A stretch of DNA of 64,000 bases from assembly GCF_901827155.1 (NCBI RefSeq), contig NZ_LR594659.1, forward strand, positions 5,304,501-5,368,500. Reading direction: 5' to 3'. The notes under the pieces were generated by a model. It saw nothing but the letters and a program-made list of their open reading frames with translations, made no database searches and was not told the origin of the DNA. Source of the stretch: Variovorax sp. PBL-H6. Lineage in GTDB: Bacteria; Pseudomonadota; Gammaproteobacteria; Burkholderiales; Burkholderiaceae_C. The position numbers and the translations under genes are program-made. Shown here piece by piece: positions 47,391-64,000 of the stretch (within the stretch, counting starts at the first letter, position 1; each line of letters opens with the position of its first letter).

Positions 47391-48892
47391 CACTCGAGTC
47401 CTTCCTCGACCAGTTCGGCGGCGCGCAGCAGCGCTCGCGCCTTCGCCTCGGTTTCCTTCCACTCCAGCTCCGGCACCGAATCGGCCACCACACCCGCCGC
47501 CGCCTGCACGTGCAGCATCTGGTCCTTCACGATGCCAGTCCGGATGGCGATGGCCACGTCCATGTCGCCCGCATAGCTGATGTAGCCGCAGGCACCGCCA
47601 TAAAGGCCGCGCTTGGTGGGCTCCAGCTGGTCGATCAGCTCCATCGCGTGCACCTTGGGCGCGCCCGTCAGGGTGCCGGCGGGAAAGGTGGCCTTCAACA
47701 CGTCGATGGCCGTCATGCCGTCCTTCAAGGTGCCCTCCACATTGCTCACGATGTGCATCACGTGGCTGTAGCGCTCGATGGCGAAGGCCTCTGTCACCTT
47801 CACGCTCCCGGTCTTGGCGATGCGGCCGATGTCGTTGCGCGCCAGGTCGATCAGCATCACGTGCTCGGCACGCTCCTTGGGGTCGTTGATCAGCTCCTGC
47901 TCGGCCGCCTTGTCCAGCTCGGGCGAGGCACCGCGCGGCCGGGTGCCGGCGAGGGGTCGGATGGTGATCTTCTGCTCGCCTCCGCCCGTTTGCTCCTGGC
48001 GCACCAGGATCTCCGGCGAGGCGCCCACCACGTGGAAGTCGCCCAGGTCGTAGTAGTACATGTAGGGAGACGGGTTGAGCGAACGCAGCGCGCGGTAAAG
48101 CGACAGCGGCGATTCGGTGTAGCGCTTGCTGATGCGTTGGCCCACCTGGACCTGCATGAAGTCGCCGGCGGCGATCAGTTCCTTGGCCCGCTCCACCGCC
48201 GCGAGGTAGTCGGCCTTGGCGAAGCTGCGCTCGGGGGGATGCGCCTGGGTCGGCCGCACCTGTGGCGCGCTGACCGAGTACTTGAGCTGCTCACGCAGCT
48301 CGCGCAGGCGCCGCTTGGCATTGGCATAGGCCTCCGGTTGAGCCGGGTCGGCGTAGACGATCAGGTAGAGCTTGCCCGAGAGGTTGTCGATCACCGCCAG
48401 TTCCTCGCATTGCAGCAAGAGGATGTCGGGGCAGCCCAGCGTGTCGGGCGGACAACTCAGTTCGAGCTTTTTCTCGATATGGCGCACCGTGTCGTACCCG
48501 AAGTAGCCGGCCAGCCCACCGCAGAAGCGCGGCAGGCCGGGCCGCAGGGCCACCTTGAAGCGTTCCTGGTAAGCCGCGACGAAGTCCAGCGGATTGCCGC
48601 GAACCTCCTCGACCACCTTGCCGCCGGTGACGACCTGTGTCAGCGCCTTGGCGCCGAAGCCACTGGCGCGCAGCAGGGTACGCGCCGGCAGGCCGATGAA
48701 GCTGTAGCGGCCGAAGCGCTCGCCGCCCACGACCGATTCCAGCAGGAAGCTATGGCGGCCGCCTTCCTTCGCGTGAGCCAGCTTGAGATAAAGGGACAGC
48801 GGGGTTTCGAGGTCGGCAAAGGCCTCGACCATCAGCGGGATGCGGTTGTAGCCCTGCGCGCTGAGGCTCTTGAATTCGAGTTCGGTGATCAC
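47390..48892 (-). CDS. trpE: Anthranilate synthase component I
   Basis: 500 residues. The N-terminal feedback site contains [19 protein letters not shown], in which LLES binds tryptophan. The chorismate domain has [32 protein letters not shown] and [19 protein letters not shown]. With TrpG it makes anthranilate. It is preceded by a leader peptide gene with two Trp codons, so attenuation is probable in addition to feedback inhibition. Confidence 0.98.
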
Positions 48893-49134: not shown

Positions 49135-49641
49135 CTAGCGCACGAGGTGCACGCGCAGCGCCCCGAGCTGCGAATACAGCTGGTGCACCGCCTTCTCATC
49201 CAGGCCCGCGAAGAGCTCCAGCAGCCATTCCTCGTGCGCTTTCGCCATGGCCTCGAAACCGCGGCGGCCCTTGGGCGTCAGGCTCACGATCCAGGCCCGG
49301 CGGTCTTCCGGGCTCGCCGAGCGCTGGACCACGCCCTCGCGCTCGAGCTCGTCGGTCAGCCCCGTGACATTGCCGCCCGTCACCATGAGGTAGCGCGACA
49401 GCACGCGCATCTTGAGGCCTTCGCGGTAGCGGTAGAGCTGCGCCATGTAGTCGAAGCGCGCCAGCGAGATGTCGAAGTTCTCGCGCAGCCGCTTGCGGAT
49501 CTCGGCCTCCACCTGTGTGGTGCTGGCCAGCATGCGCAGCCAGAGCTTGAGGACCGCATGGTCGCCGGTGCCGGCACGGGCCTCGTGGCCCAGCTCCTGC
49601 GCGTCGCTCAAGAGCGCATGCGAAGCGTCGTTCTGTTTCAT
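49135..49641 (-). CDS. iadR: MarR family transcriptional repressor, candidate IadR
   Basis: 168 residues. The winged helix spans about 40-130: [40 protein letters not shown] and the wing [17 protein letters not shown]. It is the last gene of the Rieske/Liv-type catabolic cluster, overlapping the preceding SDR stop by four bases. Published Variovorax iad loci carry a MarR repressor that binds indole-3-acetate; position and neighbours here fit. A perfect palindrome at the cluster promoter (62496-62511) is the likely operator. The symbol is an inference from context. Confidence 0.75.
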
Positions 49642-50414
49642 GTGACCTCGCCGCCCGAGACCGAGATCGATTGCCCGTTGACCGACGCAGCGCCCTCCCC
49701 GCACAGCCAGCGCACCGCATCCGCCACCTCGGCCGGCTGCACGATGCGGCGCTGCGGGTTGACCGCAGCGAACTCCGCCATTGCCTCGGCCTCGCTGCGC
49801 CCCGTCTTGCCGACCACATTGCTGACGCTGTCGCGCAGGATGTCGGTGTCCGTATAGCCCGGGCAGACGGCATTCACCGTCACGCCCTTGCGTGCCACCT
49901 CCATCGCCAGCGAGCGCGTGAGCCCGATCACGCCGTGCTTGGCCGCCGTGTAGGCGCTGACATAGGCGTAGCCCTTCTGCCCCGCCGTGCTCGCGATGTT
50001 GACGATGCGGCCCCAGCCTGCTTCGAGCATGCCCGGCAGCGCCGCCTGGGCGCAGAGGAAGCTGCCCGTCAGGTTGACGTTCAGCATCCGCTGCCACAGC
50101 GCGACCGATGTCTTCAGGAAGGGCGCACTCTCGGCCGCGCCGGCGTTGTTGACCAGAATCGCGACCGGCCCGCGCTCGGCCCGCGCCTGCGCGAAGGCCG
50201 CTGCCACCGCCTCGGGATCAGCCACGTCGGCGGTCACGACGCCATGGCCGCTGCCGGGCAGCGAGCCGACCACGCGCAGCAGTGCGGCGCGGTCGCGCCC
50301 GAGCAGGGTCAGGGCTGCGCCCTCCGCTGCCAGCGCGCGCGCGATTTCGGCACCGATGCCGCGTGCGGCACCGGTCACGAGCACGTGGCGGCCCGTCATT
50401 GAATGTGCTTGCAT
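49638..50414 (-). CDS. Short-chain dehydrogenase/reductase, SDR1
   Basis: 258 residues. Cofactor motif [16 protein letters not shown], and the catalytic Ser and Tyr-x3-Lys in [22 protein letters not shown]-terminal SVSGGEV is usual for classical SDRs of the 3-oxoacyl-reductase type. In context it oxidises or reduces an alcohol/ketone intermediate of the aromatic pathway. A second ATG five codons downstream is possible as start. Confidence 0.9.
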
Positions 50415-50469
50415 ACCTGAAGTGTCCAGTCCTGAAAACGTTCCATGGTCGGCGATGGCATGCGCCCTC

Positions 50470-51237
50470 TCAGCGCATCAGGCGTCCGCCGTTGATGTCC
50501 AGCGTGGCACCGGTCACGAAGGCCGCGGCGGGCGAGGCCAGGTAGACCACTGCCGCGGCCACTTCTTCCGGCTCGCCGAAGCGTCCGACCGGGATACCCG
50601 CGGCAAGCGTCCGGCGCTGCCTCTCGTCCATCGCCTCGAGCACCGGGCTGCGCACCGCCGCCGGCGCCAGTGCGTTCACCGTGACGCCGTGCGGCGCGAG
50701 TTCCTGCGCGAAAGCGCGGGTGAGTGCGACCACGCCCGCCTTCGAGGCGGCGTAGTGCACGCCGGTCGCCGCGCTCGCCTGCTGCCCGGCGATCGAGCCC
50801 AGGTTGACGATGCGGCCCGTGCCGCGCTCGCGCATGTGGCGCCCGGCGAGGCGGCAGCCGAAGAAGCTGCCGCGCAGATTGACAGCCAGCACCTCGTCCC
50901 ATTCCGCAACGTCGATGTCCCAGAGCGAAGTCGAAGGTGTGCGGGCGGCATTGTTGACCATCACGTCGACGCCGCCGAAGCGCTGCACGGCGGCGTCGAA
51001 GCACAGTTGGAAACTGGCCTCATCGCGCACGTCGAGCGCCATCGCGCTGGCCTCGTGCCCTGCGTCGCGCAAGCCGGCTGCCACGCCCTCGGCCGCCTGC
51101 TCATCGATGTCGGTCAGCATCACGCAGGCGCCGGCCTCGGCCAGCCCGCGCGCGATCGCCGCACCGAGCCCTTGCCCTGCTCCGGTCACGAAGGCCGAGC
51201 GTCCGTCCAAGGAGAACAGCGCGGTACGCGTCGACAT
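50470..51237 (-). CDS. Short-chain dehydrogenase/reductase, SDR2
   Basis: 255 residues. [23 protein letters not shown], and the catalytic set NLGSIAGQQ and [16 protein letters not shown] are complete; the end [13 protein letters not shown] is typical. It lies four bases after the CoA ligase and 55 bases before SDR1. It is a distinct paralogue and probably acts on a different intermediate. Confidence 0.9.
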
Positions 51238-51241
51238 GGCA

Positions 51242-52843
51242 TCAGCCCTTGGCCGGCGCTCGCCCGCCGGGCCCATGGTCCCAGGTCGCGGCAGTCACGC
51301 CGAGCTCGCGCAGCTTGTACTTCTGCACCTTGCCGTTCTCGGTGCGCGGCAGGTCCGGCAGCAGGTCGACATAGCGCGGCAGGGCAAAGTACGGCAGCCG
51401 GGCCTCGCAGAAGGCGCGCAGCTCGGCCAGCTCGAGGCGCTCGCCCTCGCGCGCCACCAGCGCGGCCATCACCTCGTCCTCGGCCAGCTCGGAGCGCACG
51501 GGATAGACCGCGCAGGCGGCGACACCCGGATGGCTCAGCAGCACCTGCTCGACCTCGAAGGAAGAGATGTTCTCCCCGCGCCGGCGAATCGCGTCCTTGA
51601 TGCGGTCGACGAAGCGGAAAGCCCCGTCCGCCTCGCGCACAACACGGTCGCCCGTGTGAAACCACAGGTTGCGCCAGGCTTCGACCGTCTTCTCCGGCAT
51701 GTTGAAGTAGCCGCTCGCGAAGGCATGCGGCTCGTCGGCGCGCAGCAGCAGTTCGCCGGCTTCGCCGTCCGGCAGCGCAACGTCGTGCTCATCCGCCACG
51801 CGCGCCTGGAAACCGGGGCGCAGCCAGCCCATCACCCCGCCGCGCGGCGAATCGGGCGCGGTGGCGATGGCGAAGTTGGTCTCGGTGGAACCATAGCCCT
51901 CCAGCAGCCGCACGCCCGTGCGTTCCAGGAAGGCCAGGGCCGCCGATTCCGGTACGCCGGGTCCCAGCCCGACGCGCACGCGGTGGTCGCGCTCGCCGGG
52001 TCCTTCGGGCTGCGCCAGGAGGATGGGCACCATCGCACCCAGCAGGTAGACCACCGTCGCGCCCGAGGCCCGCATCGACGGCCAGAAGCCCGATGCCGAG
52101 AAGCGGGGCTCGAAGACCACTTCGCACCCGGTGAGCGCCGCCTGCGCGAAGGTGTTGAGCGCGTTGATATGAAAGAGGGGCAGCGTGGTGCACAACAAGT
52201 CCTCGGGCCCGACCCCGAGCACATCGGCACTGTTGGCGCCCCACCAGTAGTACTGCGCATGCGGGCACACAACCCCCTTCGCCGGACCGGTCGTGCCGGA
52301 GGTGTAGAGGATGGCCAGCGGGTCTCCGGGCTGCATCGCCGCCGGCAACAGGGCCTCGCGCGCTGCGGGATAGGGCAGCGTGCGCACGTCCGGTGGCGCA
52401 TTGCCGGCGTGCCCATCCAGCACCCAGATCTCGCGCAGAGAAGTGCGCGCCAGATCTGCGGCCAGCAAGCGCTCGAGAAAGGCCGCTTCGATGACCAGCA
52501 GCTTCGCCTCGCTGTTCTGCAGGAAGTATTCGATCTGCGGCCCCATCGAGGCCGTGTTGATCGGCACCATCGCCGCGCCCAGCCACCCGCAGCCGAGAAA
52601 GACTTCGAGGAACTCGATGCGGTTGCCGCTCATCAGCGCGACGCGGTCCCCGCGCTGCACGCCGGCCTGCGCCAGCGCCGCGGCACGCGCGCCCGCCGCG
52701 CGCTGCGCATCTCCGTGCGTCCATGACCGCCCCGCCATGCGCAGCAACGGCCGCTCGCCGAAGCGCGCCGCCTGGCGCTCCAGCATCGCGGGCAGCGTGC
52801 GTTGCGAGGGCGGCAGCGGGCTGGCGGGGCGCTCAGTCGTCAT
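51242..52843 (-). CDS. Acyl-CoA ligase (AMP-forming), aromatic acid type
   Basis: 533 residues. ATP loop [16 protein letters not shown]5-type [15 protein letters not shown], hinge [15 protein letters not shown]8 [17 protein letters not shown] and the catalytic Lys in [14 protein letters not shown] are all present. It activates a carboxylic acid as its CoA thioester. In aerobic indoleacetate degradation of the Aromatoleum/iad type, CoA ligation of an oxindole-acetate intermediate is known; assignment here is by context. It overlaps livF by 11 bases. Confidence 0.9.
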
Positions 52844-53564
52844 CGTTCGTGCCCCCGCCGAGGTAGGTGGCCTGCACGCGCGGATCACTGGCCAGCTCCT
52901 GCGACGCGCCGGTCAGCGCGATCTCGCCGGTCTCCAGCACATAGCCGTGGTCCGAGCTCTCCAGTGCCGCGCGCGCGTTCTGCTCGACCAGCAGGATGGA
53001 GACGCCGTCCTCACGCAGCTTGCGCACGATGGCCAGGATGTCGCGCACGATCAGCGGCGCCAAGCCCAGGCTGGGCTCGTCCAGCATCAGCAGGCGCGGC
53101 GCCGACATGAGCGCGCGACCCACCGCCAGCATCTGCCGCTCGCCGCCCGAGAGCGTGTCGGCGCGCTGCGCGCGGCGCTCGGCCAAGCGCGGGAAGCGGT
53201 CGTAGACAGACTGCAGCCGCTTCTTCAGGGCATCGCTGCGCAGCTTGCTGCCGAAGGCACCGAGCTGCAGGTTGTCGAGCACGCTGAGTTCGCCGAAAAG
53301 CTCGCGCTTCTCGGGCACCAGGCAGAGGCCGCGCTCGACGCGCGCCTCCACGTCGAGCCCGTGCAGGTCCTCGCCCTCGAAGCGCAGCACCCCTTTGCAG
53401 GGCAGCAGGCCCATGGCGGCAGCGAGCAGCGTGGTCTTGCCTGCGCCGTTCGGGCCGATGACCGAGATGATCTGGCCGTGTTCCAGGTTGAGCGAGACGC
53501 CGCGAACCGCATCGACCTGACCGTAAGACACATGAAGGTCGCCTATTTCGAGCATCGCGGTCAT
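52833..53564 (-). CDS. livF: Branched-chain-type ABC transporter ATPase, LivF
   Basis: 243 residues. Walker [17 protein letters not shown], signature [15 protein letters not shown] and Walker [17 protein letters not shown] are intact; LivF length. With the LivH and LivM-LivG proteins it completes a HAAT-type importer. It is separated from the LivM-LivG gene by a 670-base repeat region, unusual within a transporter operon. Confidence 0.93.
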
Positions 53565-53615
53565 TTGGAGGCCTTCTCTTGGCTTGTCACTTCGGGGTGT
53601 GTTGCTCCCGCTTGT

Positions 53616-53729
53616 CTTGCTCCCTCTCCCTCTGGGGGAGGGCTGGGGTGAGGGCACCGGGCGCTTGATTCGTACGTTGCTGTTGATTTGAAGCCTGAGC
53701 CGGGGCGTCGTCCCGGCGGCCGAGTCACT
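53616..53729 (+). repeat. Left arm of 114-bp inverted repeat
   Basis: It begins CTTGCTCCCTCTCCCTCTGG and ends CGGCGGCCGAGTCACT. The first 45 bases differ from the complement of the right arm at two positions only; a GATTCGTACGTTGC core and the last 27 bases are also shared. Confidence 0.85.
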
Positions 53730-54088
53730 CCGGGTCTTCTCTCACGCTGACTCTCGCGCGCACGCAGCACACGCAGCACATGCACATGCACATGCTCAAG
53801 CTCGTGCTCATGGCCATGGCCATGGCCGTGCTCATGCTCACGTTCGGGCGCACAAGGACGCACCTGTTCCAGGCCTCGCGCAGCGAGGCCGTTGTTGGCC
53901 GAGCGAAGCAATGGCCCGACCGTTCCCCAATCCCCTCTGCGCGTGCCGAGGAGCGCAGCTTTTCGCGGATCAGGGCCGCGCGTGTTTGAGCGCAGCGAGT
54001 TTGCGCGGACCCCGCGAAAAGCGAGCACCGCAGGTTGCCCGTAGCGAAGCGAAGGGTCGCGCGCAGTGGGGTCGCCTTTTCTTTGGTT

Positions 54089-54116
54089 ACTTTCTTTTGG
54101 CGAAGCAAAAGAAAGT
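54089..54116. repeat. Perfect 11-bp hairpin at the edge of the right arm
   Basis: ACTTTCTTTTG and CAAAAGAAAGT flank GCGAAG. AT-rich bases within GC-rich DNA. This word recurs in intergenic regions of Comamonadaceae and Xanthomonadaceae (recalled, not searched). Confidence 0.75.
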
Positions 54117-54227
54117 GACTCGGCCGCCGGGACGACCCCCCGGCTCCTGCCTTTGATAGAGCGCAACGTACGAATCGCAACCCCGGTGCCCTCACCCCAA
54201 CCCTCCCCCAGAGGAAGAGGGAGCAAG
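54114..54227 (-). repeat. Right arm of 114-bp inverted repeat
   Basis: The inverse of the left arm, same length, ending GAGGAAGAGGGAGCAAG. It lies eight bases from the LivM-LivG stop. Confidence 0.85.
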
Positions 54228-54234
54228 TCCCAGC

Positions 54235-56082
54235 TCATACCACGCTCCCCAGATAAGCCGCCTGCACCCGCTCATCCGCCCGCACGGCAGACGGCACGCC
54301 CTCCACCAGCTTCGATCCGAAGTTCATCACCACCAGCCGATCCACCAGCTTCATGACAAAGTCCATGTCGTGCTCCACGATCAGGATCGTCACGCCCTCC
54401 TCGCGAAGCTTGCGCAGCAGGTCGCCCAGCGCCATCTTCTCCTTGCGCCGAAGCCCTGCGGCGGGTTCGTCCAGCACCAGCAGCACCGGGTCGGCCGCCA
54501 GCGCACGCGCAATCTCGAGGATGCGCTGCGTCCCCAACGGCAGACTCCCCGCGAGCTCGTGCGCCCGCTCGCCCAGCCCGATGCGATCCAGCTGCCGCTG
54601 CGCCTCCTGGAGCACCTGGCGCTCCTCGGCGCGGTCCAGCCGCAGACCTGCCTTGAGCACACCCGCGCCCGTGCGTGCATAGGCACCGAGCGCGACGTTG
54701 TCCAGCAGCGTCATGTGCGGCCGCAGCTTGACGTGCTGGAAGGTGCGCGCCAGCCCCAGCCGCGCTACCTTGCGCTGCGGCATGCCGGCGATCTCATGGC
54801 CGAGGAAGCGCACCTTCCCGGCCGTCATCGGCAAGGTGCACGTCAGCAGGTTGAACATCGTCGACTTGCCAGCGCCGTTGGGCCCGATCAGGCCCATGAT
54901 CTCGCCGGCCTTCACCTCGAAGCTCACGTCGTTCACCGCCACCAGTCCGCCAAAGCGCTTGACGGCCCCCGCGACCGAGAGGATGGACGAACCGCGCTCC
55001 GGCAGTGTGCGATGCGGCAACGGCTCGACCGCCGCCATGGGTTCCCGTGGCACCTGCGCACGCGCACGCTTGTGGCTCCAGCGCCGCACGAAGCCCATCA
55101 GCCCGCCGCGCGCGAAGTGCAGCAGCAGGATGAAGATCGTGGCGAAGGCCACCGCCTCCAGCTGACCGGCACGCTGCGTCAGCAGCGGAAGCACGTCCTG
55201 CAGCCCGTTCTTGAGGATCAGCACCAGCGCCGAGCCAACCAGCGCGCCGGCCAGGTGCCCGAGCCCGCCGGCCACGGCCATCAGCAGGTACTCGATGCTG
55301 GCGCGCACGTCGAAGGGCGAGGGGCTCACGAAGCGGTTCATGTGCGCGTAGAGCCACCCCGCGAGGCCGGCGAACAGCGCGGCCGTGACGAACAGCGTGA
55401 GCCGCACGCGGTACGCATCGGCCCCCACGCTGGCCAGCAAGATGGCGCCGCCGCGCAGGCTTCGGATCGCGCGGCCAGGCCGCGACTGCAGCAGGTTGTG
55501 GCTGAACAGCATGGCCAGGCCGACCAGAGCCCAGATGAGGTAGTAGATGGCGCTCGGATCGGCCAGCGACCAACCGCCGATGCTGAGTGCCGGAATATTC
55601 GACAAGCCCGTGTGGCGCCCCAATGCATCGACATTGCCGAACAACATCGCGATCGACAGCCCCCACGCGATGGTCGAGAGCGGCAGGAAGTGCCCGCCCA
55701 ACCGCAGCGTGAGCATGCCGATCGCCAGCGCCGAGAGCCCCGTCAGGCCCAACGCGAACACCAGACCCAGCCAGGGCGACAGCCCCTGCGCGGTGCTGAG
55801 CCAGGCCGTTGCATAGGCGGCGATGCCGACGAAGGCCGCCTGCCCGAAGGAGGTCGCCCCACCGATGCCGGTCAGCAGCACGAGGCCCAGCGCCACCAGC
55901 GCGCCGATGCCGATATCGTTCAGCAGCGACACCGTGAAGTTGCCCGCCAGCAGCGGCACCAGCGCCAGCACCACGACGACGAGGCCGATCCACAGCAAAC
56001 GCGTGGGAAGGCGCCTCGTCGATGTGCCTGCGGGCGTGCCGCTCACGGGGACCGCACCTTCGGTCGTTTGTGCCGTGCTCAT
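54235..56082 (-). CDS. Fused LivM permease - LivG ATPase of branched-chain-type ABC transporter
   Basis: 615 residues. The first about 340 residues are a LivM permease with eight or more helices (GGATSFGQAAFVGIAAYATA, EYLLMAVAGGLGHLAGALVG). A charged linker leads into a full LivG ATPase: Walker A GPNGAGKSTMFNLLTC, Q-loop RTFQHVKL, signature LPLGTQRILEIARAL, Walker B VLLVLDEPAAGL. LivM and LivG are usually separate; natural fusions are known in Burkholderiales. The ATG overlaps the LivH stop by four bases. Confidence 0.93.
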   Translation of the reverse strand: MSTAQTTEGAVPVSGTPAGTSTRRLPTRLLWIGLVVVVLALVPLLAGNFTVSLLNDIGIGALVALGLVLLTGIGGATSFGQAAFVGIAAYATAWLSTAQGLSPWLGLVFALGLTGLSALAIGMLTLRLGGHFLPLSTIAWGLSIAMLFGNVDALGRHTGLSNIPALSIGGWSLADPSAIYYLIWALVGLAMLFSHNLLQSRPGRAIRSLRGGAILLASVGADAYRVRLTLFVTAALFAGLAGWLYAHMNRFVSPSPFDVRASIEYLLMAVAGGLGHLAGALVGSALVLILKNGLQDVLPLLTQRAGQLEAVAFATIFILLLHFARGGLMGFVRRWSHKRARAQVPREPMAAVEPLPHRTLPERGSSILSVAGAVKRFGGLVAVNDVSFEVKAGEIMGLIGPNGAGKSTMFNLLTCTLPMTAGKVRFLGHEIAGMPQRKVARLGLARTFQHVKLRPHMTLLDNVALGAYARTGAGVLKAGLRLDRAEERQVLQEAQRQLDRIGLGERAHELAGSLPLGTQRILEIARALAADPVLLVLDEPAAGLRRKEKMALGDLLRKLREEGVTILIVEHDMDFVMKLVDRLVVMNFGSKLVEGVPSAVRADERVQAAYLGSVV

Positions 56083-57134
56083 TGGTCCACCTCCTCTTCT
56101 TCCTCTTCCGCATGCACGCTCATGAAGGAGCGCAGCATCAGCACCGGAATCAGCAGGCTGAAGACGATGACGTCCTTCAGCGCGCCGCTCCAGAACGAGG
56201 CGAAGCTCTCCACCACGCCCACCGCCAGAGCGCCGATCGCAGTCATCGGGTAGCTCACCAGCCCGCCGATGATGGCCGCCACGAAGGCCTTGAGGCCGAT
56301 GATGAAGCCCGAGTCGTAATACATGGTGGTGACCGGCGCGATCAGCACGCCGATCAGCCCGGCCAGCAGCGAGGCGCAGCCGTAGGCCAGCAGCGCCGTG
56401 CGCGCCGGCCGGATGCCGACCAGCCGCGCGCCCACGCGATTGACCGCGGTGGCGCGCAGCGCCTTGCCGGCGATCGTGCGCTCGAACACCAGGAAGAACA
56501 GCCCGCTGAGCACGACCGCTGCGGCCACCATCAGGACCACCTGGCCGCTCACCGTGAAGCCGTCGCCGAGCGTGATCGCGCCGCCCGCCAGCGGCTGCGT
56601 GCGCGAGCCCTCGGGGCCGAAGAACAGCAGGCCCAGGCCCGACAGCAGGAAGTGCAGTGCCAGCGAGACGATCAGCAGCACCAGCACCGAGGCATCGGCG
56701 ATCGGCTGGAACACGACGCGCGACAGGAGCGGCGCGATCGGCACCACCAGCAGCACCGTCGAGATGATGTGCAGCGGCGCCGGCACGCCGGGCCGGCTCG
56801 CCAGCCACGCCAGCAGGCAGGGAACGAGCGGCAGCACGCCCCAGCCCAGCAGGGCCTTGGGGATGCGCGCGCTCTCGCCGCGCCGCAGCAGGCTGCCGAC
56901 CTCGGTCGCCAGCGCGAGCGCGGTCAGCACCAGCACCAGGCCGATGGTGGGCGGCACGCGCCCCGTTTCGAAGGCGGCCAGCGACAGCGCAGCGAAGGCC
57001 GCGACATCGCCGAAGGGCACGAAGACCACGCGCGTGACCGAGAAGATCAGCACCAGCCCCAGCCCGGCCAGGAGATAGACGGCGCCGTTCGCCAGGCCGT
57101 CGATGCCCAGGATCAGTGCCACATCGGGTGTCAT
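56079..57134 (-). CDS. livH: Branched-chain-type ABC transporter permease, LivH
   Basis: 351 residues. Typical start GIDGLANGAVYLLAGLGLVL and the LivH block GLKAFVAAIIGGLVSYPMTA. About eight helices. The C-terminal tail ends in a run of six Glu, unusual for the family. It is the first membrane component after the SBP1 gene (40-base gap). Confidence 0.92.
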   Translation of the reverse strand: MTPDVALILGIDGLANGAVYLLAGLGLVLIFSVTRVVFVPFGDVAAFAALSLAAFETGRVPPTIGLVLVLTALALATEVGSLLRRGESARIPKALLGWGVLPLVPCLLAWLASRPGVPAPLHIISTVLLVVPIAPLLSRVVFQPIADASVLVLLIVSLALHFLLSGLGLLFFGPEGSRTQPLAGGAITLGDGFTVSGQVVLMVAAAVVLSGLFFLVFERTIAGKALRATAVNRVGARLVGIRPARTALLAYGCASLLAGLIGVLIAPVTTMYYDSGFIIGLKAFVAAIIGGLVSYPMTAIGALAVGVVESFASFWSGALKDVIVFSLLIPVLMLRSFMSVHAEEEEEEVDQ

Positions 57135-57174
57135 TGAAGAGTCCTCCGCTTCATTCCGCTGCCGCTCGCGGGCT

Positions 57175-58335
57175 TCAGTTCGCGAGCTTCCACTGGCCGT
57201 TGTCGAGCTTCACGATCACGCGTGCGCGCTCGTCCACGCCGTACAGGTCGCCCGGCTTGAAGTTGTAGACGCCGTGCGTGCCCACCACCTCCTTGGTGCT
57301 GGCAATGGCGTCGCGCAGCGACTGCCGGAACTCCGGCGTGCCCGGCTCGCCCTTGGCGCGCGCCGCAGCGTTGGTGAACACCAGCCAGCCGTCGAAGGAG
57401 TAGGCGGAGAAAGCGTCGCTGGTGGGCGCGTTGTTGACCTTCTGGAAGATGGCGCGGAAATCCAATGCGATCTTCTTGGTCGGGTAGCCGTCCGGCAGTT
57501 GCTCCGCGACGATCACCGGGCCGGTGGGCATCAGCGCGCCCTGGCCGGCAGCGCCGACCACGCGCACGAAGTCGGGGTTGATCAAGCCGTGCTGGCCATA
57601 CATCGGCCCCTTGAAGCCGCGCTCGCTCAGTGCCAGGAAGGGCAGCGCGCCCGGCGTGCCGGCGCCGCCGGTCATCACCGCGTCCGGCTTCATCGCCAGC
57701 AGCTTGAGCACCTGGCCGGTGACGGAGGCATCGGCCCGCGCATAGCGTTCGTTGCCCAGCACCTTGATGCCGGCCGCGGGCGCCGACTTCATCAGCGCGT
57801 TGTAGACCAGGTCGCCCCAGGCATCGGAGAAGCCGATGTAACCCACGGTCTTGACGCCGTCCCTCTTCATGCGCTGGACCACCGCGTCGATCATCAGCTG
57901 CGTGGGCTGCGCGACGGTGAAGACCCATCCGTTCTCCGCGGGGTCGAGCTGGATCGGTGTGAGGCCGATCATCGGCACCTTGGCATCGCGGCCCACTTGC
58001 GCCATCGCGATCGCGGCCGGCACGCCGGACGTGCCCATCAGCACATCCACCTTCTCCTCGTCCACCAGCTTGCGCGCGTTGCGCCCGGCGGTGGTCGGGT
58101 CGGAGCCGTCGTCGAGCACGATCAGCTGGATCTTGCGGCCGTTGACCTCGCTCTTGTAGGCGAGCGCGGCCTGCATGCCCTTGGCGTAGGGAACGCCCAG
58201 CGAGGAGTTCGGCCCGGAGAGCGAGACGCTGAGCCCCACCTTGAGATCGGCCGCGAGCGCGGTGATCGCGAATCCGGCGGCCAGGGCCGTGGCCAGCGCG
58301 CTGCGCGCCAGGGTCTTCATCAAGCTCTTCGTCAT
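57175..58335 (-). CDS. Branched-chain-type substrate-binding protein, SBP1
   Basis: 386 residues. Signal peptide LATALAAGFAITALAADLKV; periplasmic type I fold with GLSVSLSGPNSSLGVPYAKG, DDGSDPTTAGRNARKLVDEE and YIGFSDAWGDLVYNALMKSA. It delivers substrate to LivH/LivM. It is one of three related binding proteins in the cluster, more like SBP3 than SBP2 in several blocks. Aromatic compounds are common ligands of such proteins in catabolic operons. Confidence 0.92.
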   Translation of the reverse strand: MTKSLMKTLARSALATALAAGFAITALAADLKVGLSVSLSGPNSSLGVPYAKGMQAALAYKSEVNGRKIQLIVLDDGSDPTTAGRNARKLVDEEKVDVLMGTSGVPAAIAMAQVGRDAKVPMIGLTPIQLDPAENGWVFTVAQPTQLMIDAVVQRMKRDGVKTVGYIGFSDAWGDLVYNALMKSAPAAGIKVLGNERYARADASVTGQVLKLLAMKPDAVMTGGAGTPGALPFLALSERGFKGPMYGQHGLINPDFVRVVGAAGQGALMPTGPVIVAEQLPDGYPTKKIALDFRAIFQKVNNAPTSDAFSAYSFDGWLVFTNAAARAKGEPGTPEFRQSLRDAIASTKEVVGTHGVYNFKPGDLYGVDERARVIVKLDNGQWKLAN

Positions 58336-58366
58336 GTCGGGGCTCCTCGAGGGTGGGTGGAATGGG

Positions 58367-58831
58367 TCAGATGAACAACTGGATGGCGTGCAGCGCGCGG
58401 CCGGCATTGAGCAGGTCGATGCGCTTCTGCCGAATCAGGAAGCCCTCGCCGTGCCGCACCAGCAGGTGGCGGCAGGTGCCGGCAAGCAGCAATTGCTCTT
58501 CGCCGCGCGCTTCCACGTAGATGAAGGGCGTGGAGAGCGAGAGGCCGGCCTCGTCGTCCTGCTCGATCACCGAGCGCTGCAGCACGTGCTGGCAATGGCT
58601 TCGGGGATGCTGCGAGTGGGCGCGAGGATTCTTCAGGCGCTCGATGCGAAGTTGCAGCAGCAGCCGGTCTTCATACGCGATGGAGTTGTGCGAGAGCGGA
58701 TCGGCCTGCGCGGCGCCCTGCAACGGCACCCAGTAGTGGCCATCGTCGGCGAAGAGGGCGAGCCACTCGTCGAAGCGGCCGGCATCGAGCAGGGCCGCCT
58801 CATGGGCGACGAAGTCCTGCGCCTCTTTCAT
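58367..58831 (-). CDS. iadE: Ring-hydroxylating dioxygenase beta (small) subunit, candidate IadE
   Basis: 154 residues, SnoaL/NTF2-like fold. Family features: FVAHEAALLDAGRFDEWLAL, DDGHYWVPL and the RIERLKNPRAHSQHPRSHC segment. It has no metal site and builds the trimeric scaffold for the alpha subunit. The ATG overlaps the alpha-subunit stop by four bases. The name follows the published Variovorax iadDE pair and is inferred. Confidence 0.8.
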   Translation of the reverse strand: MKEAQDFVAHEAALLDAGRFDEWLALFADDGHYWVPLQGAAQADPLSHNSIAYEDRLLLQLRIERLKNPRAHSQHPRSHCQHVLQRSVIEQDDEAGLSLSTPFIYVEARGEEQLLLAGTCRHLLVRHGEGFLIRQKRIDLLNAGRALHAIQLFI

Positions 58832-60129
58832 GCAGAGGGCTCCGTCATGTACCTGGCCCAGGCGCGGAACTGGTTGCGCATCAGCAGCTCGTTGGTGCCG
58901 TTGGTGCTGATCGTGTCCTGGGCAAGCTCGGCCGGATCGAAGTTGCGATGCAGGCTGACCCATTCGTTGCCCTCGGCCGCCAGGCCGCGCTGCATGCTCT
59001 CGAACAGGTGCACGTCGTCGTGCGCCACGACCGACATGGGGGAGAAGACCAGCCGGTTGTAGGTCATCGCGCGCTCGAAGAGCAGGTCCGGCGCGCCTGC
59101 CGCGCGGAAGCTCCAGGCCTCGATCAGCGTGCGGTTTGCGGCCAACGGGCGAATCACCCGGATGGCCTGCGGTGAGCCCTTGACCGAGAGACTGGGGAAG
59201 AGCACCGAGTTCTGCGGTGAGCGCTGCAGGATTTCCATCGCCCGCTCCGCGCCGTGTGCCTCGCGCATCGCTGCCTCGTAGTCAGGCATCTGCGCGTAGT
59301 TCGAGTGGATGCTGAAGTTGATGCCCAGGACGCTGTGGCCATTGGCGAACACGCGCCCGCCCATCTTGTCGAAGAAGTCGTAGCCCGAGCCGAAGGGCAG
59401 GATCTGCTCCATCGCCATCGGCTTGGGCTCGTCCGGCGAGCGCCCCTGCCACAGCGCGTCGGCCGCCTGCGTGGCCGACTCGTGCGTGGACATCGGATGC
59501 ACCGTGTCGTTGATGTTCTCGAGGTACATCTTCCAGTTGCAATGGATGATGTTGCGCAGCACGCCGCCGCCCACGGTGAGCCGGCCCTCGGGCGAGCGCT
59601 CCACCATGTTGTCGATCGCGCCCAGCACCTCGCCGAAATAGTCTTCGAAGCCGGGGCCATGATCGGCCAGACGCACGAACACGAAGTCGCGGTAGACCGC
59701 CGTGTTCTTCAGCTCGACGAGGCCACGGCCCGATTCGCATTCCTTCAGCCGCGTGCCTTCGTAGCCGGACTTGAGCGGGATCGCAAGCGGCGCGCCATCG
59801 AGCTTGTAGGTCCACGCGTGGTAGGGGCAGCGGAAGAACTTGCCCGCATTGCCGCTCTCGTCCGTGACCAATCGGCTGCCCTTGTGCGCGCAGCGGTTGT
59901 AGAACACGCGCACCGCGCCGTCGGCCTGCCGCACCATCATCACGGGCCTGCCGGCGAGCTCCAGCGCCCAGTAGTCGCCGACGTTCGGCACCTGGCTCGC
60001 ATGGCCCACGTAAAGCCAGGTGTTGGCGAAGAAGCGCTCCTGCTCCAGCGCGAACAATTCCTCGCTCAGGTAGAGATCGCGGTGCACGCGGTCCTCCTGG
60101 ACCAGCGCGCGGATCGCTTCGGGTGTCAT
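58828..60129 (-). CDS. iadD: Rieske ring-hydroxylating dioxygenase alpha subunit, candidate IadD
   Basis: 433 residues. The Rieske cluster ligands are Cys80-x-His82 and Cys101-x2-His104 (RCAHKGSR, CPYHAWTY). The mononuclear iron site has Asp208, His211 and His216 in NDTVHPMSTHES. So the enzyme looks active. It inserts oxygen into an aromatic ring using electrons from a ferredoxin/reductase, which is not in this window. In Variovorax, iadDE are reported as necessary and sufficient for indole-3-acetic acid degradation, and this cluster matches in gene content. Benzoate-, anthranilate- or salicylate-type oxygenase is the alternative. Confidence 0.88.
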   Translation of the reverse strand: MTPEAIRALVQEDRVHRDLYLSEELFALEQERFFANTWLYVGHASQVPNVGDYWALELAGRPVMMVRQADGAVRVFYNRCAHKGSRLVTDESGNAGKFFRCPYHAWTYKLDGAPLAIPLKSGYEGTRLKECESGRGLVELKNTAVYRDFVFVRLADHGPGFEDYFGEVLGAIDNMVERSPEGRLTVGGGVLRNIIHCNWKMYLENINDTVHPMSTHESATQAADALWQGRSPDEPKPMAMEQILPFGSGYDFFDKMGGRVFANGHSVLGINFSIHSNYAQMPDYEAAMREAHGAERAMEILQRSPQNSVLFPSLSVKGSPQAIRVIRPLAANRTLIEAWSFRAAGAPDLLFERAMTYNRLVFSPMSVVAHDDVHLFESMQRGLAAEGNEWVSLHRNFDPAELAQDTISTNGTNELLMRNQFRAWARYMTEPSA

Positions 60130-60146
60130 GGCTCAACCGTGAGAAA

Positions 60147-61289
60147 TCATGGCACCAGCTTCCACTGGCCCTTCTCCATGCGCACCACCACCACCGCGCG
60201 CTTGTCGGAGCCGTAGCGGTCGTCCGGCTTGAAGTTGTAGACCCCGTGCGTGCCCACCAGCTCCTTGGTGCTCACGATGGCATCGCGCAGCGCCGTTCGG
60301 TACTGCGGGGTACCGGGCTCGCCCTTGGTGCGCGATGCGGCATCGGCGAGCAGCAGGTAGGCGTCGTAGGTGTAGGAAGAGAAGGCATCGGTCGGCAGCG
60401 CGCCGTGCACCTTCTGGTAGGCGCTGCGGAAGTTCATCGACACCTTCTTGATCGGGTTGTCGGCCGGCAGCTGGTCGGCCACGAGGACCGGGCCGCTGGG
60501 CACCTGCAGGCCCTCGATCGAGGCGCCGCCCACGCGCACGAAGTCGGCATTGATCAGCCCGTGCGTGCCGTAGATCCGACCCTTGTAGCCGCGCTCGGCG
60601 AGGCTCAGGTAAGGCAGCGCGCCGGGCGTGCCGGAGTTGCCGGCAAAGACCGCGTCGGGCCGGCTGGCCATGATCTTCAGCACCTGCCCCGCGACCGAGG
60701 AGTCGGTGCGCGCATAGCGCTCGTTGGCCACCACCTTGATGCCGGCGGGCTCGGCGCTCTTCACCAGCGAGTCGTAGGCCAGGTCGCCCAGGGCATCGGA
60801 GAAGCCGATGTAGGCCACCGTCTTGACGCCCGACTGCTTCATCTTCTCGACCACGCCCGCGACCATCAGCGGGAAGGGCTGCGACACCGTCACCGTCCAG
60901 GCGCCTTCGGGGCCGGGAATGGTGACCGGCGTGGGCGAGATCAGCGGTGTGTTGAGCTCGCGCGCCACGGCGGCGATGGCCATCGCATTGGGAACGCCCG
61001 AGCTGCCGATCAGCACGTCGACCTTGTCCTCGGTCACGAGCTTGCGTGCATTGCGGCCGGCAGTGGTGGGGTCGGAGGCATCGTCCAGCACGATCAGCTC
61101 GACCTTGTGGCCTGCCAGCGCCGGATGCTCGGCGATGGCGGCGCGAATGCCCTTCTCATACGGAATGCCCAACGCCGAAACGGGCCCCGACAGCGAGCTG
61201 ATGAAGCCGATCTTGAGATCGGCGGCCGTGGCCTGCGCGGCGGCCAGGGCAATGGCCGTGAGGCCGACGAGACGTGCGATGTTCTTCAT
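60147..61289 (-). CDS. Branched-chain-type substrate-binding protein, SBP2
   Basis: 380 residues. Short signal peptide (LVGLTAIALAAAQATAADLK); GFISSLSGPVSALGIPYEKG and DDASDPTTAGRNARKLVTED blocks. It ends 17 bases before the Rieske alpha start. Ligand loops differ from SBP1 and SBP3 (SPTPVTIPGPEGAWTV against the corresponding SIANANLPGEEGAWMV of SBP3), suggesting a different substrate preference. Confidence 0.92.
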   Translation of the reverse strand: MKNIARLVGLTAIALAAAQATAADLKIGFISSLSGPVSALGIPYEKGIRAAIAEHPALAGHKVELIVLDDASDPTTAGRNARKLVTEDKVDVLIGSSGVPNAMAIAAVARELNTPLISPTPVTIPGPEGAWTVTVSQPFPLMVAGVVEKMKQSGVKTVAYIGFSDALGDLAYDSLVKSAEPAGIKVVANERYARTDSSVAGQVLKIMASRPDAVFAGNSGTPGALPYLSLAERGYKGRIYGTHGLINADFVRVGGASIEGLQVPSGPVLVADQLPADNPIKKVSMNFRSAYQKVHGALPTDAFSSYTYDAYLLLADAASRTKGEPGTPQYRTALRDAIVSTKELVGTHGVYNFKPDDRYGSDKRAVVVVRMEKGQWKLVP

Positions 61290-61291
61290 GT

Positions 61292-62449
61292 TCAGGGGAC
61301 CAGTTTCCATTGACCTTTTTCAAGCTTGACGACGACGCGCGAACGCTCGTCGGAGCCGTAGCGATCGTTCGGCTTGAAGTTGTAGACGCTGTGCGTGCCC
61401 ACCAGCTCCTTGGTGCTGACGATGGCATCGCGCAGCGCCACGCGATACGCCGGCGTGCCGGGCTCGCCCTTCGCGCGCTGTGCGGCGTCGAGGAACAGCA
61501 GCCATGCGTCGAAGGTGTAGGCGGAGAAGGCATCGGTGGGCGCCGCGCCGTTGGCCTTCTGGTAGGCCGCACGGAAGTCCATCGAGACCTTGCGGATCGG
61601 GTTGGAGTCGGGCAGCTGCTCGGCCACGATCACCGGCCCCGTGGGCGCCAGCAGGCCTTCGACCGCATTGCCGCCCACGCGCACGAAGTCGGGGTTGATC
61701 AGCGCATGCATGCCGTAGATCTGCCCCTTGTAGCCGCGCTCCGAGAGCGCGAGGTAGGGCAACGCGCCCGGCGTGCCCGAGGTGCCGGTGATCACCGCAT
61801 CGGGACGCAGCGCGACGATCTTCAGCACCTGGCCGGTGACCGAGGCATCGGCGCGTGCATAGCGCTCGTTGCTCACGACCTTGATGCCGGCCGCCGGCGC
61901 GCTTTTGGTGAGCGCGTCGTAGACCAGGTCGCCCCAGGCATCGGAGAAGCCGATGTAGCCAACGGTCTTCACACCGGACTTCTTCATCTGGTCGACCACC
62001 GCGTTCAGCATCAGCGGGGCGGGCTGCGGCAGCGTGACCATCCATGCGCCTTCCTCGCCCGGCAGGTTGGCATTGGCGATGGAGATCAGCGGCGTCTTCG
62101 TTTCGCGCGCCACGGCGGCGATCGCCAGTGCGCCGGGTGAGCCGGCCGTTCCGATGATGACGTCGACCTTGTCCTCGTCGATCATCTTGCGCGCGTTGCG
62201 CGCGGCGGTCGATGGATCGGAGGCATCGTCGAGCTGCACCAACTGGATCTTGCGGCCGTTCAACTCGGACTTGTAGGCCAGCGCGGCCTTCATGCCCTTG
62301 TCGTAGGGGATGCCCAGCGAGGACACCGGCCCCGACAAGGACGTTATGAAGCCGACCTTGTAGTCGGCGGCCCAGGCACTGGCCGCGCTCAGTGCGCCGA
62401 TGCCGAGGACGATGCCTGCCAGGGCGCGAAAGGGACTTGGAACTCTCAT
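61292..62449 (-). CDS. Branched-chain-type substrate-binding protein, SBP3
   Basis: 385 residues. Signal peptide (GIVLGIGALSAASAWAADYK) followed by GFITSLSGPVSSLGIPYDKG. It is the first gene after the palindromic operator, so it is probably the promoter-proximal gene of the main operon. Separated by only two bases from SBP2. Confidence 0.92.
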   Translation of the reverse strand: MRVPSPFRALAGIVLGIGALSAASAWAADYKVGFITSLSGPVSSLGIPYDKGMKAALAYKSELNGRKIQLVQLDDASDPSTAARNARKMIDEDKVDVIIGTAGSPGALAIAAVARETKTPLISIANANLPGEEGAWMVTLPQPAPLMLNAVVDQMKKSGVKTVGYIGFSDAWGDLVYDALTKSAPAAGIKVVSNERYARADASVTGQVLKIVALRPDAVITGTSGTPGALPYLALSERGYKGQIYGMHALINPDFVRVGGNAVEGLLAPTGPVIVAEQLPDSNPIRKVSMDFRAAYQKANGAAPTDAFSAYTFDAWLLFLDAAQRAKGEPGTPAYRVALRDAIVSTKELVGTHSVYNFKPNDRYGSDERSRVVVKLEKGQWKLVP

Positions 62450-62495
62450 GACGATCCTTCGGAAGTTGAAGCGGGCCTGAAGATGATTTGTGAAA

Positions 62496-62511
62496 TGTTT
62501 AGACCTAAACA
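62496..62511. promoter_or_regulatory. Perfect palindromic operator TGTTTAG-AC-CTAAACA, candidate MarR site
   Basis: A 7-2-7 perfect inverted repeat of the length and type bound by MarR dimers. On the minus strand it directly abuts the -10 element and covers the predicted transcription start, so bound repressor would block RNA polymerase. Confidence 0.75.
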
Positions 62512-62540
62512 ATGCTAGCGAGACCTCGGCTGGATGACAA
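62512..62540 (-). promoter_or_regulatory. Candidate sigma-70 promoter of the SBP3-to-MarR operon
   Basis: Minus strand TTGTCA (62540-62535, five of six consensus bases), a 17-base spacer and TAGCAT (62517-62512, four of six). It lies 63-91 bases ahead of the SBP3 start. Confidence 0.65.
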
Positions 62541-62583
62541 GCGAGACAACGAGGATTCGGGCAAACGAGGGCGCAACGCACCG

Positions 62584-63315
62584 CTACAGGGCCAGGCTGC
62601 CCACGCTGGTGCCGCCGCACACATAGAGCACCTGGCCGGTCACGAAGCCGTTGGCCGGGTCGGCGAAGAAGCGCACGGCCCGTGCCACGTCGGCGGCCTC
62701 GCCCAGGCGCTGCACCGGCACCGAGGCGGCGAGCTGGCGTTCTTTCTCGCTGCCGGCTTCCACCACGTCGTAGAACATGTCGGTGCGTATCGGGCCCGGG
62801 GCCACCACGTTCACGGTGATGCCTTCGGCCGCGAGCTCGAGCGCCCAGGTGCGCGCCATGCCCAGCATGCCGGCCTTGGTGGCGGAGTAGCTTGTGCGCG
62901 TGGCCAGGCCCACCGCGGCGCGCGAGGACATGAGCACGACGCGGCCGAAGCGCTCGGCGCGCATCGCAGGCAACGCGGCCTGCACGAGCTGGATCGCACA
63001 GCCAAGATGCAGCTGGGCGAGCGCGTCGAGATCCTCGAGCTGGACCTCGGGCAACAGCGCCGGCCGGATCACGCCCGCGTTGTGCACCACCGTTCGCACT
63101 TCGAAGCGCTGCGCCATCTCCTGCGCGGCCTGCGCGGTGGCGGCGCGGTCCATCAGGTCGACCTCGATGTTGAAGAGCTTGGGATGGTTGATCTCGCATC
63201 GACGCCGCGCCAACGACACCACCTCGTAGCCTTGCGCGAGCAGGTCCGCGCAGATCGCCTTGCCGATGCCGGCACTGCCGCCGGTGACGGCGGCAACGGA
63301 ATGCGTGAGGTTCAT
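62584..63315 (-). CDS. Short-chain dehydrogenase/reductase, SDR3
   Basis: 243 residues. TGGSAGIGKAIC, HNAGV, LMSSRAAVG and the Tyr-x3-Lys of SYSATKAGMLG. Third SDR of the cluster, and distinct in sequence from SDR1 and SDR2. It sits 19 bases after the cyclase stop and so seems to belong to an upstream transcript with it. Confidence 0.9.
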   Translation of the reverse strand: MNLTHSVAAVTGGSAGIGKAICADLLAQGYEVVSLARRRCEINHPKLFNIEVDLMDRAATAQAAQEMAQRFEVRTVVHNAGVIRPALLPEVQLEDLDALAQLHLGCAIQLVQAALPAMRAERFGRVVLMSSRAAVGLATRTSYSATKAGMLGMARTWALELAAEGITVNVVAPGPIRTDMFYDVVEAGSEKERQLAASVPVQRLGEAADVARAVRFFADPANGFVTGQVLYVCGGTSVGSLAL

Positions 63316-63334
63316 CGTGGTCTCCTGTTGCGAC

Positions 63335-64000
63335 TCAAGCAGCGTCACCCACCAGCGCCAGCACGCGCAGCGGACTGCCGCTGCCCTTCTCGATCTTGAG
63401 CGGCGGGCAGATCAGCACCGCCCCGGTCGGCGGCAGCAGGTCGAGGTTGCTCAGGCATTGCAGGCCATAGCGGCCCGCCCCGTGCATGAAGTAGTGGCAG
63501 GGATAAGGCGGCCGCAGGTGGTAGCCCTGTCCCGCATCGGTGCCGATGGCCTCCGAGCCGAAGCCCAGCACCTCGCGCTGCTCGACCAGGAAGCGCACCG
63601 CCTCCGTGCTCGGGCCCGGCGTGTGCTGGCCGGTCTCGTCGAAGTTCTGGTAGGCCTCGGGGTCCTGCCGCTTCGACCAGTCGGTGCGCATCAGCACCCA
63701 CGCGCCCTTCGGGATGCGGCCGTGCTTCGCCTCGAAGCGCTCGATGTCTTCCACGGTCAGGAGGTAGTCGGGGTCGGCTTTCGCCTGCTCCGAGCAGTCG
63801 ATCACGCAGGCCGGTGCCACGAAGTGCTTCACGGGGATGGTGTCGACCGAATTGTTCGGCAGGTCGCGGCCCGAGATCCAGTGGATGGGCGCGTCGAAGT
63901 GCGTGCCGGTGTGCTCGCCGCACGAGAAGTTGTTCCAGTACCAGCCAGGCCCGCGCTCGTCGTACTTCGAGACCTCCTCGATGCGGAAAGGCCAGCACTG
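63335..64000 (-). CDS. Cyclase family metal-dependent hydrolase (isatin hydrolase/kynurenine formamidase-like), partial
   Basis: At least 222 residues; the N-terminus is beyond the right edge. The metal-binding motif is GEHTGTHFDAPIHW, the HxGTHxDxPxH signature of the cyclase superfamily. The second half has HGRIPKGAWVLMRTDWSKR and IGTDAGQGYHLRPPYPCHYF. Members include kynurenine formamidase and isatin hydrolase. Isatin is an intermediate of known indoleacetate pathways, so isatin hydrolase is the favoured guess from context. Confidence 0.85.
   Translation of the reverse strand, partial: QCWPFRIEEVSKYDERGPGWYWNNFSCGEHTGTHFDAPIHWISGRDLPNNSVDTIPVKHFVAPACVIDCSEQAKADPDYLLTVEDIERFEAKHGRIPKGAWVLMRTDWSKRQDPEAYQNFDETGQHTPGPSTEAVRFLVEQREVLGFGSEAIGTDAGQGYHLRPPYPCHYFMHGAGRYGLQCLSNLDLLPPTGAVLICPPLKIEKGSGSPLRVLALVGDAA

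Follow-up and report, generated by a model that had tools for sequence, protein, structure and literature searches.

An indole-3-acetate degradation locus of Variovorax with a predicted second oxygenase arm and a proposed aldolase-like route to isatin

We analyzed a stretch of 64,000 nucleotides from the genome of Variovorax sp. PBL-H6 (referred to as the window; bases 5304501-5368500 of contig C1, 5.99 Mb long in a genome of 6.87 Mb) together with the 20 kb to its right (L010). The genes at positions 49135..64000 of the window are very likely the left half of a complete Variovorax-type iad locus for indole-3-acetate (IAA), in which a core route from IAA to anthranilate, the predicted function of the locus, would be combined with a second arm centered on a paralogous Rieske oxygenase that we refer to as D1E1. 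Identifying the locus as iad is ordinary; what is new is the second arm, the reading of side-chain cleavage as an aldolase step, and the insertion of the locus next to a trp gene. Genomes and loci of the comparison sets carry the prefixes G and L, respectively, and are partly nonindependent, as a G genome may be the same strain as an L locus (the D proteins of G245 and L035 are identical).

Identity and extent of the iad locus

The preliminary description of positions 49135..64000, made from the letters alone, had proposed an iad-like cluster. Every gene that it named is an open frame on the minus strand, closely packed with its neighbors, and among the proteins scanned the Pfam and NCBIfam families agree with the names. 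The assignment to IAA comes from the flanking genes, which lay outside the view of that description. The cluster continues for approximately 16 kb past the window end at 64000, first with a complete isatin hydrolase, a fusion of DUF35 with a short-chain dehydrogenase/reductase (SDR), a thiolase-like protein, and a further AMP-forming ligase; then with another Rieske beta and alpha subunit, a reductase, and iadB- and iadA-like oxidoreductase subunits; and finally with a divergent MarR gene, a presumably psuG-like gene, four more enzymes, and gph. The reductase for which the preliminary description advised inspecting this DNA is indeed there (iadC, L010:8127-9110), and iadF to iadJ lie in order across the right flank and the window edge.

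Two flanking genes correspond to experimentally characterized IAA proteins. Approximately 5 kb beyond the right end of the window, an IadD orthologue reaches 956 bits with the IAA oxygenase structure 7yls and keeps 14/14 of the published iron, cluster, and IAA-pocket residues (PMC10374108). Approximately 11 kb right of the window, divergent from iadA, lies an IadR orthologue (263 bits against 7kfo) that keeps 7/7 IAA contacts (PMC9613470). Together with the IAA-binding protein IadK2 (Table 1), these matches bear out the proposed iad type. Variovorax is also the genus indicated by the names attached to the closest proteins and loci.

The order of genes from IadD to the AMP-forming ligase is repeated in 9/9 loci L011-L019 (eight Variovorax and one metagenome-assembled genome), so the locus is not a chance assembly; the two left-hand SDR genes and the MarR gene are found in most of these loci. 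The order also equals that of Variovorax paradoxus CL14 (hotspot 33), in which K3, K2, J-H, G, F/E, D, and C are numbered genes 61 to 70 (PMC10374108), and the shared order extends from iadR-iadA to K3 (genes 73-61). Both loci have a second MarR gene at the far end, and orthologues of IadD, IadR, IadK2, and the isatin hydrolase are present here. Judged by gene order alone, CL14 genes 60 and 59 should be D1 and E1; the iad texts consulted do not characterize this arm. Finkel et al. (2020) reported the operon in all available Variovorax genomes (PMC10329457). We noticed no iacA or iacE gene among the frames read, although no search dedicated to these genes was run.

The window MarR, which the preliminary description had taken for the iad repressor, is not IadR: its score with the structure of IadR, 7kfo, is only 29 bits, and the real IadR, encoded in the flank, would exert repression at a site ahead of iadA. 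The window MarR is the final gene in 8/9 of loci L011-L019, and by its position it is a candidate IadR2 (MarR_50), the second MarR at the locus end in CL14. IadR2 of CL14 was reported not to bind IAA. A conserved block that we chose from the iadR-iadA gap, GAATGTATCCACAATCATGAAT, is absent from the window even when three mismatches are allowed and matches only itself in L010, and a separate operator of this kind for the second arm was accordingly rejected.

D1E1 is a separate, IadDE-like oxygenase

The Rieske pair in the window had been read as IadDE, which does not hold: its alpha subunit D1 is a paralogue with 59% identity to the flank IadD, and E1 has 50% identity to the flank IadE. The best structural match of D1 is nevertheless IadD (9o71, 607 bits), with the next family, biphenyl dioxygenase, at 157 bits, and D1 does not group with benzoate, phthalate, or salicylate oxygenases. 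D1E1 resembles the IadDE oxygenase (7yls, 9o71) in its subunits, its iron and Rieske ligands, and 7/9 listed pocket residues, and differs from it in forming its own clade and in two pocket changes, Leu211 to Ile and His311 to Gln, so that in total 12/14 published ligand and pocket residues are kept. Residue 211 is Val in a few relatives. The residues on the carboxylate side (Asn210, Lys322, Arg329, and Tyr362) are the same as in IadD, and the side chain at 311 is reported to move upon IAA binding (PMC10374108).

In a tree of 95 rows built by a quick method, the D1 sequences form a single group of 27 rows with a Shimodaira-Hasegawa-like approximate likelihood ratio test (SH-aLRT) value of 100, outside the IadD clade, though the exact placement of the group beside that clade is not fixed by this tree. 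Gln311 is found in 27/27 D1 rows, whereas His occupies this position in 63 of the remaining 68 rows and Phe or Pro in the other five, which are the most distant. Among the best database matches listed, Gln311 is kept in 120/120 D1 homologues and Lys322 in 119/120. The median dN/dS over 10 loci is 0.175 for D1, indicating purifying selection, and 0.107 for IadD.

D1-type alpha subunits occur in 90/101 genomes of the genus, a count from which G054 and G057 (weak matches, ~1e-61) and G067 (where the match is IadD) were dropped from 93 matching genomes. IadD occurs in 90/101 as well, and both are present in 89 of the 91 genomes having either; the exceptions, G076 with only D1 and G067 with only IadD, are fragmented assemblies. 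Wherever both lie on one contig, they share a strand, with IadD upstream and 9.6-13.9 kb from D1 (84/84 genomes). Of 349 genomes sampled from the family, a set that includes five of the genus, 34 match at a threshold of 1e-140. Outside the genus, 10 genomes have a D1-type protein of 69-78% identity, each alongside an IadD-like copy, which lies 106 kb away in G291 and on another contig in G421. G416 (a partial match, 73%) and G405 (64%, within the D1 clade) are also D1-like. Given this wide and linked spread, the separate clade, the fixed Gln311, and the purifying selection, D1E1 is, on comparative grounds, an old and working-looking separate enzyme rather than a decayed copy. The locus of G291 is split (L117, L118), with D1, iadI, iadJ, and the importer 106 kb apart from IadD, iadA, iadB, and iadF-iadH.

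Possible functions of the second arm

The conserved Asn210, Lys322, Arg329, and Tyr362 point to an indole-acetate-like acid as the substrate of D1E1, most likely a close relative of IAA. One such relative is 2-oxindole-3-acetate (oxIAA), an inactive auxin product made by plants, of which 2-hydroxyindole-3-acetate is the tautomer. Our tentative proposal is that IadK3 and D1E1 form a branch dedicated to the uptake and oxidation of oxIAA. In this branch D1E1, working with the shared reductase as a Rieske monooxygenase, would hydroxylate oxIAA at C3, and the product, dioxindole-3-acetate, would enter the core route as the presumed substrate of IadF. The arm as a whole would comprise IadK3, D1E1, the third binding protein, the second acyl-coenzyme A (acyl-CoA) ligase, and the MarR at the IadR2 place.

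Several lines of evidence are consistent with this proposal. Wild-type CL14 uses up all of the 2-hydroxyindole-3-acetate and dioxindole-3-acetate in its medium (PMC9613470), and according to a 2025 preprint the product of IadCDE in cells is not oxIAA, which a locus deletion also fails to deplete (PMC12633357). IadK3 differs from IadK2 by S104V and W172L, and 21/21 binding proteins of the IadK3 type (V104/P126/L172) stand directly before a D1. No K3-type protein was found in loci without D1, several of which (G146, G166, G190, G145, and G201) are cut short before any K3 or D1 further on would be covered. IadK3 was reported to bind none of the tested auxins, including IAA, and to associate weakly with oxIAA (PMC10374108). 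The pocket, the chemistry, and PMC9613470 had led to the proposal independently of this statement on IadK3 and oxIAA.

That D1E1 is instead an isozyme of IadDE, oxidizing IAA under other conditions such as low oxygen, low IAA, or different expression, would agree with the shared locus and with the 12/14 ligand and pocket residues, the four on the carboxylate side included. We consider it unlikely, as Gln311 is fixed among the matches listed, the neighboring binding protein does not bind IAA, and the removal of iadDE abolishes IAA loss in CL14 (PMC9613470) even though gene order implies that D1E1 remains in that deletion. Since, in addition, iadC-K2 alone restores anthranilate in a deletion strain (PMC12633357), D1E1 is not needed for IAA and, if present in CL14, not sufficient for it either. 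A different aromatic acid, for example indole-3-lactate, a hydroxy-IAA, or an IAA conjugate, which would join the IadF-IadI route or follow a separate one through the second ligase, is about as probable as oxIAA and would be in keeping with the second ligase, third binding protein, and second regulator that accompany D1E1, as well as with the reported failure of CL14 IadR2 to bind IAA. The second ligase is not a marker of a separate route, though, as homologues of this gene (aclA) are also present in loci without D1; in G275, G405, G144, G386, G295, G396, and G245, homologues of 55-59% identity lie between iadE and iadG, in the place of iadF.

A number of observations weigh against a second arm for oxIAA, or against the locus reading that contains it. 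IAA degradation in strain PBL-H6 is predicted from genes alone, the presence of D1E1 in CL14 is read from gene order, and the second arm is unneeded for IAA, since iadC-K2 suffices (PMC12633357). A 2023 in vitro study identified oxIAA as the product of IadCDE (PMC10374108), which would make it an intermediate of the core route and a separate branch less convincing; the binding of oxIAA by IadK3 in the same study is weak. The tree is a quick one, and the tool warned of long branches for some D1-clade rows. Five loci with a D1-clade alpha subunit have no K3-type protein (G298, G291, G405, L024, and G428), and G428 has no IadD.

We also sought the D1 substrate in the neighborhoods of solitary D1-clade loci, which gave no assignment. 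The G428 locus has its own reductase, a ligase, an aldolase-like protein, and a DUF35-type finger, with no isatin hydrolase match in 40 kb; the L026 contig, which carries SDR and cytochrome oxidase genes, ends at D1.

IadG and IadH as a putative retro-aldolase

In the core route, IadK2 and the Liv importer would bring in IAA, the flank-encoded IadC-IadD-IadE would oxygenate it, and IadJ would then yield dioxindole-3-acetate, the oxygenation and IadJ steps having been demonstrated for V. paradoxus CL14 in earlier work. IadF would form the CoA thioester, IadG and the DUF35 portion of IadH would jointly cut the side chain, giving isatin and acetyl-CoA, and IadI would open isatin to isatinate, which would lead to anthranilate. 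Because dioxindole-3-acetyl-CoA belongs to the 3-hydroxyacyl-CoAs and its alcohol is tertiary, we propose a retro-aldol cut, and IadG-IadH is probably a retro-aldolase resembling Sal and Ltp2. Isatin released in this way would fit the downstream isatin hydrolase, and dioxindole would then be a reduced side product.

The best solved relatives of IadG are 9myr (185 bits), 6ok1 (159 bits), which we take to be Ltp2, and 4u4e (153 bits). The first is the bile-acid aldolase CtSal, which has a DUF35 partner (PMC12329534). In 48/48 rows of IadG, as in CtSal, Gly replaces the nucleophilic Cys of thiolases, and the same rows keep the motif YDDY (YDCY in CtSal, YDHF in Ltp2) and two Gln that we mapped to CtSal Gln347 and Gln352. 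IadH begins with a zf-ChsH2 zinc finger and an OB_ChsH2_C fold, with the C4 finger kept in 40/40 further rows, whereas in its SDR part the catalytic Tyr is Phe in 34/41 rows, Tyr in 6/41, and His in 1/41, and the nucleotide motif is degenerate. The likeness to the steroid aldolases Sal/Shy (9myr) and Ltp2/ChsH2 (6ok1) thus covers the family of IadG, the Gly for Cys, the Tyr of the YDxY/F motif, and the DUF35 partner. The differences are that DUF35 is here fused to a mostly degenerate SDR and that the proposed substrate is dioxindole-acetyl-CoA, not a steroid. IadI, which the preliminary description had flagged as a cyclase with the isatin hydrolase metal motif, keeps HTGTHFDAPxHW in 41/41 rows and matches the solved isatin hydrolase A (5nna, 5nnb) with 378 bits over nearly its whole length, with the difference that it lies within an auxin locus.

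Three features fit the aldolase reading less well. The third motif residue of IadG is Asp (48/48 rows), neither the Cys of Sal nor the His of Ltp2, and IadG is therefore said to work like these enzymes, not to be one of them. The structure 4u4e is labeled a thiolase, although it has no Cys at the aligned place, and the SDR catalytic Tyr of IadH is retained in 6/41 rows. A 2025 preprint describes IadG as a ketothiolase and IadH as an alcohol dehydrogenase (PMC12633357), with dioxindole as the obligatory product. These names agree with the automatic family assignments, and C8H7NO2 accumulates without iadI in the same work, but a true ketothiolase with Gly at the nucleophile place, partnered by a dehydrogenase that mostly has Phe for its catalytic Tyr and feeding what is by similarity an isatin hydrolase, seems to us very improbable. 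The word "aldol" is absent from the main texts of the three iad papers, and literature listings showed none joining an aldolase with iad.

IadAB was also considered as an oxidoreductase for isatinate (2-aminophenylglyoxylate), an idea made attractive by the accumulation of C8H7NO3 in strains given only iadC-K2 (PMC12633357). It remains a weak idea only: iadAB stands beside a distant oxygenase with no iadI match in L042 and L044, and G275, G405, G295, G245, and L034 have iadI with no iadAB match in the stretch examined. In L042 and L044, iadA and iadB accompany a 38%-identical oxygenase and an importer, with no matches to iadG-iadI, possibly as part of another aromatic acid pathway.

Features of the locus

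Coordinates of the genes in the window, with the neighboring trpE and the flank-encoded IadR, are collected in Table 1.

Table 1. Genes of the iad locus and its left neighbor (window coordinates unless prefixed with L010)
Feature	Position	Strand	Evidence
MarR regulator, at the position of IadR2 (CL14 MarR_50)	49135..49641	-	Pfam MarR; 29 bits to IadR 7kfo, 75 bits to 3boq
SDR dehydrogenase A, adjoins regulator	49638..50399	-	Pfam adh_short; presence varies across loci
SDR dehydrogenase B, often absent	50470..51237	-	Pfam adh_short_C2
Second AMP-forming acyl-CoA ligase (aclA)	51242..52843	-	NCBIfam NF004808, 859 bits (cutoff 722)
LivF-type ATPase of importer	52833..53564	-	Pfam ABC_tran
Fused LivM-LivG, permease and ATPase	54235..56082	-	BPD_transp_2 51-300 and ABC_tran 383-541 in a single frame
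LivH-type permease	56079..57134	-	Pfam BPD_transp_2
Third binding protein (sbp1), IadK2/K3 family	57175..58335	-	539 bits to IadK2 7ylt; V104, P126, W172
Rieske beta E1, IadE paralogue	58367..58831	-	Pfam Ring_hydroxyl_B; 50% identity to flank IadE
Rieske alpha D1, IadD paralogue, proposed oxIAA 3-monooxygenase	58828..60129	-	607 bits to IadD 9o71
IadK3 binding protein (CL14 gene 61)	60147..61289	-	576 bits to IadK2 7ylt; V104/P126/L172; CL14 order
IadK2, IAA-binding protein (CL14 gene 62)	61292..62449	-	716 bits to 7ylt; 7/8 published IAA residues
IadJ dehydrogenase, SDR (CL14 gene 63)	62584..63315	-	Position and order; YxxxK in 49/49 rows
IadI isatin hydrolase, cut by window end (complete, L010:1335-2147)	63335..64000	-	378 bits to 5nna
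trpE, anthranilate synthase I, left neighbor of locus	47390..48892	-	TIGR00564, 533 bits (cutoff 518); linkage
IadR, IAA-sensing repressor	L010:12962-13465	+	263 bits to 7kfo; 7/7 IAA contacts

The 670-bp gap between livF and livMG (53565-54234) contains two 114-nt repeats in inverted orientation, 84% complementary and 384 nt apart, together with short repeats of the CATGCA type, and is a small element inside the operon. Judged by match positions, the same gap measures approximately 0.1 kb or less in L011 and L012 and approximately 0.9 kb in G094. In G060 (L096-L097), an additional Liv set (47-60% identity) lies between IadJ and IadK3. Shorter clusters in Paraburkholderia (L020-L023) combine an IadD-like oxygenase (67-68%) with iadC, iadF, iadJ, and an IadR-like MarR (44-46%); they also encode an IadG-like protein with YDDY, which is on the other strand.

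Placement between gph and trpE

In 81/95 genomes of the genus, gph and trpE are adjacent at a distance of 221-1066 bp; they are 29.8-32.2 kb apart in 11/95, far apart in one, and on different contigs in two. This comparison covers 95 of the 101 genomes, since G018, G065, G068, G076, and G098 have no match to one or both genes and G054 was omitted. D1 lies 10.5-11.7 kb from trpE in the same 11 genomes (a distance count that omits G065, with the genes on different contigs), and in the three genomes read for content (the window genome, G094, and G097) the gap is taken up by the iad locus. Ten of these 11 genomes are, judged by the identity of trpE and D1, close relatives of the window; G097 is linked but falls outside this group, so there were either two insertions or one old one.

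The placement could be functional, with auxin-derived anthranilate feeding tryptophan synthesis. The reported end product of the locus is anthranilate, 11 genomes carry the insertion with no other insert at this site among genomes with both genes on one contig, and no AntA-type anthranilate dioxygenase exceeds the cutoff in this genome (best match, 310 bits against 672). AndAc, tried on three Rieske proteins only, gave scores below all listed cutoffs. We nevertheless consider this improbable: in 23 genomes the locus shares a contig with trpE but lies 0.3-3.5 Mb away from it, and with 10 of the 11 being close relatives, the linkage may reflect one chance insertion plus G097. A link between the anthranilate end product and the adjacent anthranilate synthase is only a suggestion.

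Some smaller features border this site. In G060, gph lies 432 kb from trpE. A small gene in the gph-trpE gap of G023 (L093), which we take to be chalcone-isomerase-like, has no match in the 40-82 kb read of G000, G094, and G097. The gene that we presume to be psuG-like (L010:13473-14399, no NCBIfam match) lies between iadR and the upstream enzymes and has a match in G094 and none in G097 or G023. Between trpE and trpG, a 153-amino-acid frame (window 47001-47462) is presumably GxxExxY-like.

Implications for auxin turnover by Variovorax

The iad locus is the trait with which Variovorax protects root growth. The aldolase reading would account in one step for the loss of the acetate side chain and would explain why an isatin hydrolase follows. 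If the oxIAA proposal is true, Variovorax and related genera would harvest both active auxin and the oxIAA that plants discard through one aldolase-isatin route. The nine-gene cassette iadC-K2, which omits the second arm, is now being moved into other root bacteria. Should the second arm handle oxIAA or another auxin form, such cassettes would omit part of the natural function of the locus, and measurements of auxin turnover in plants could be distorted by root bacteria.

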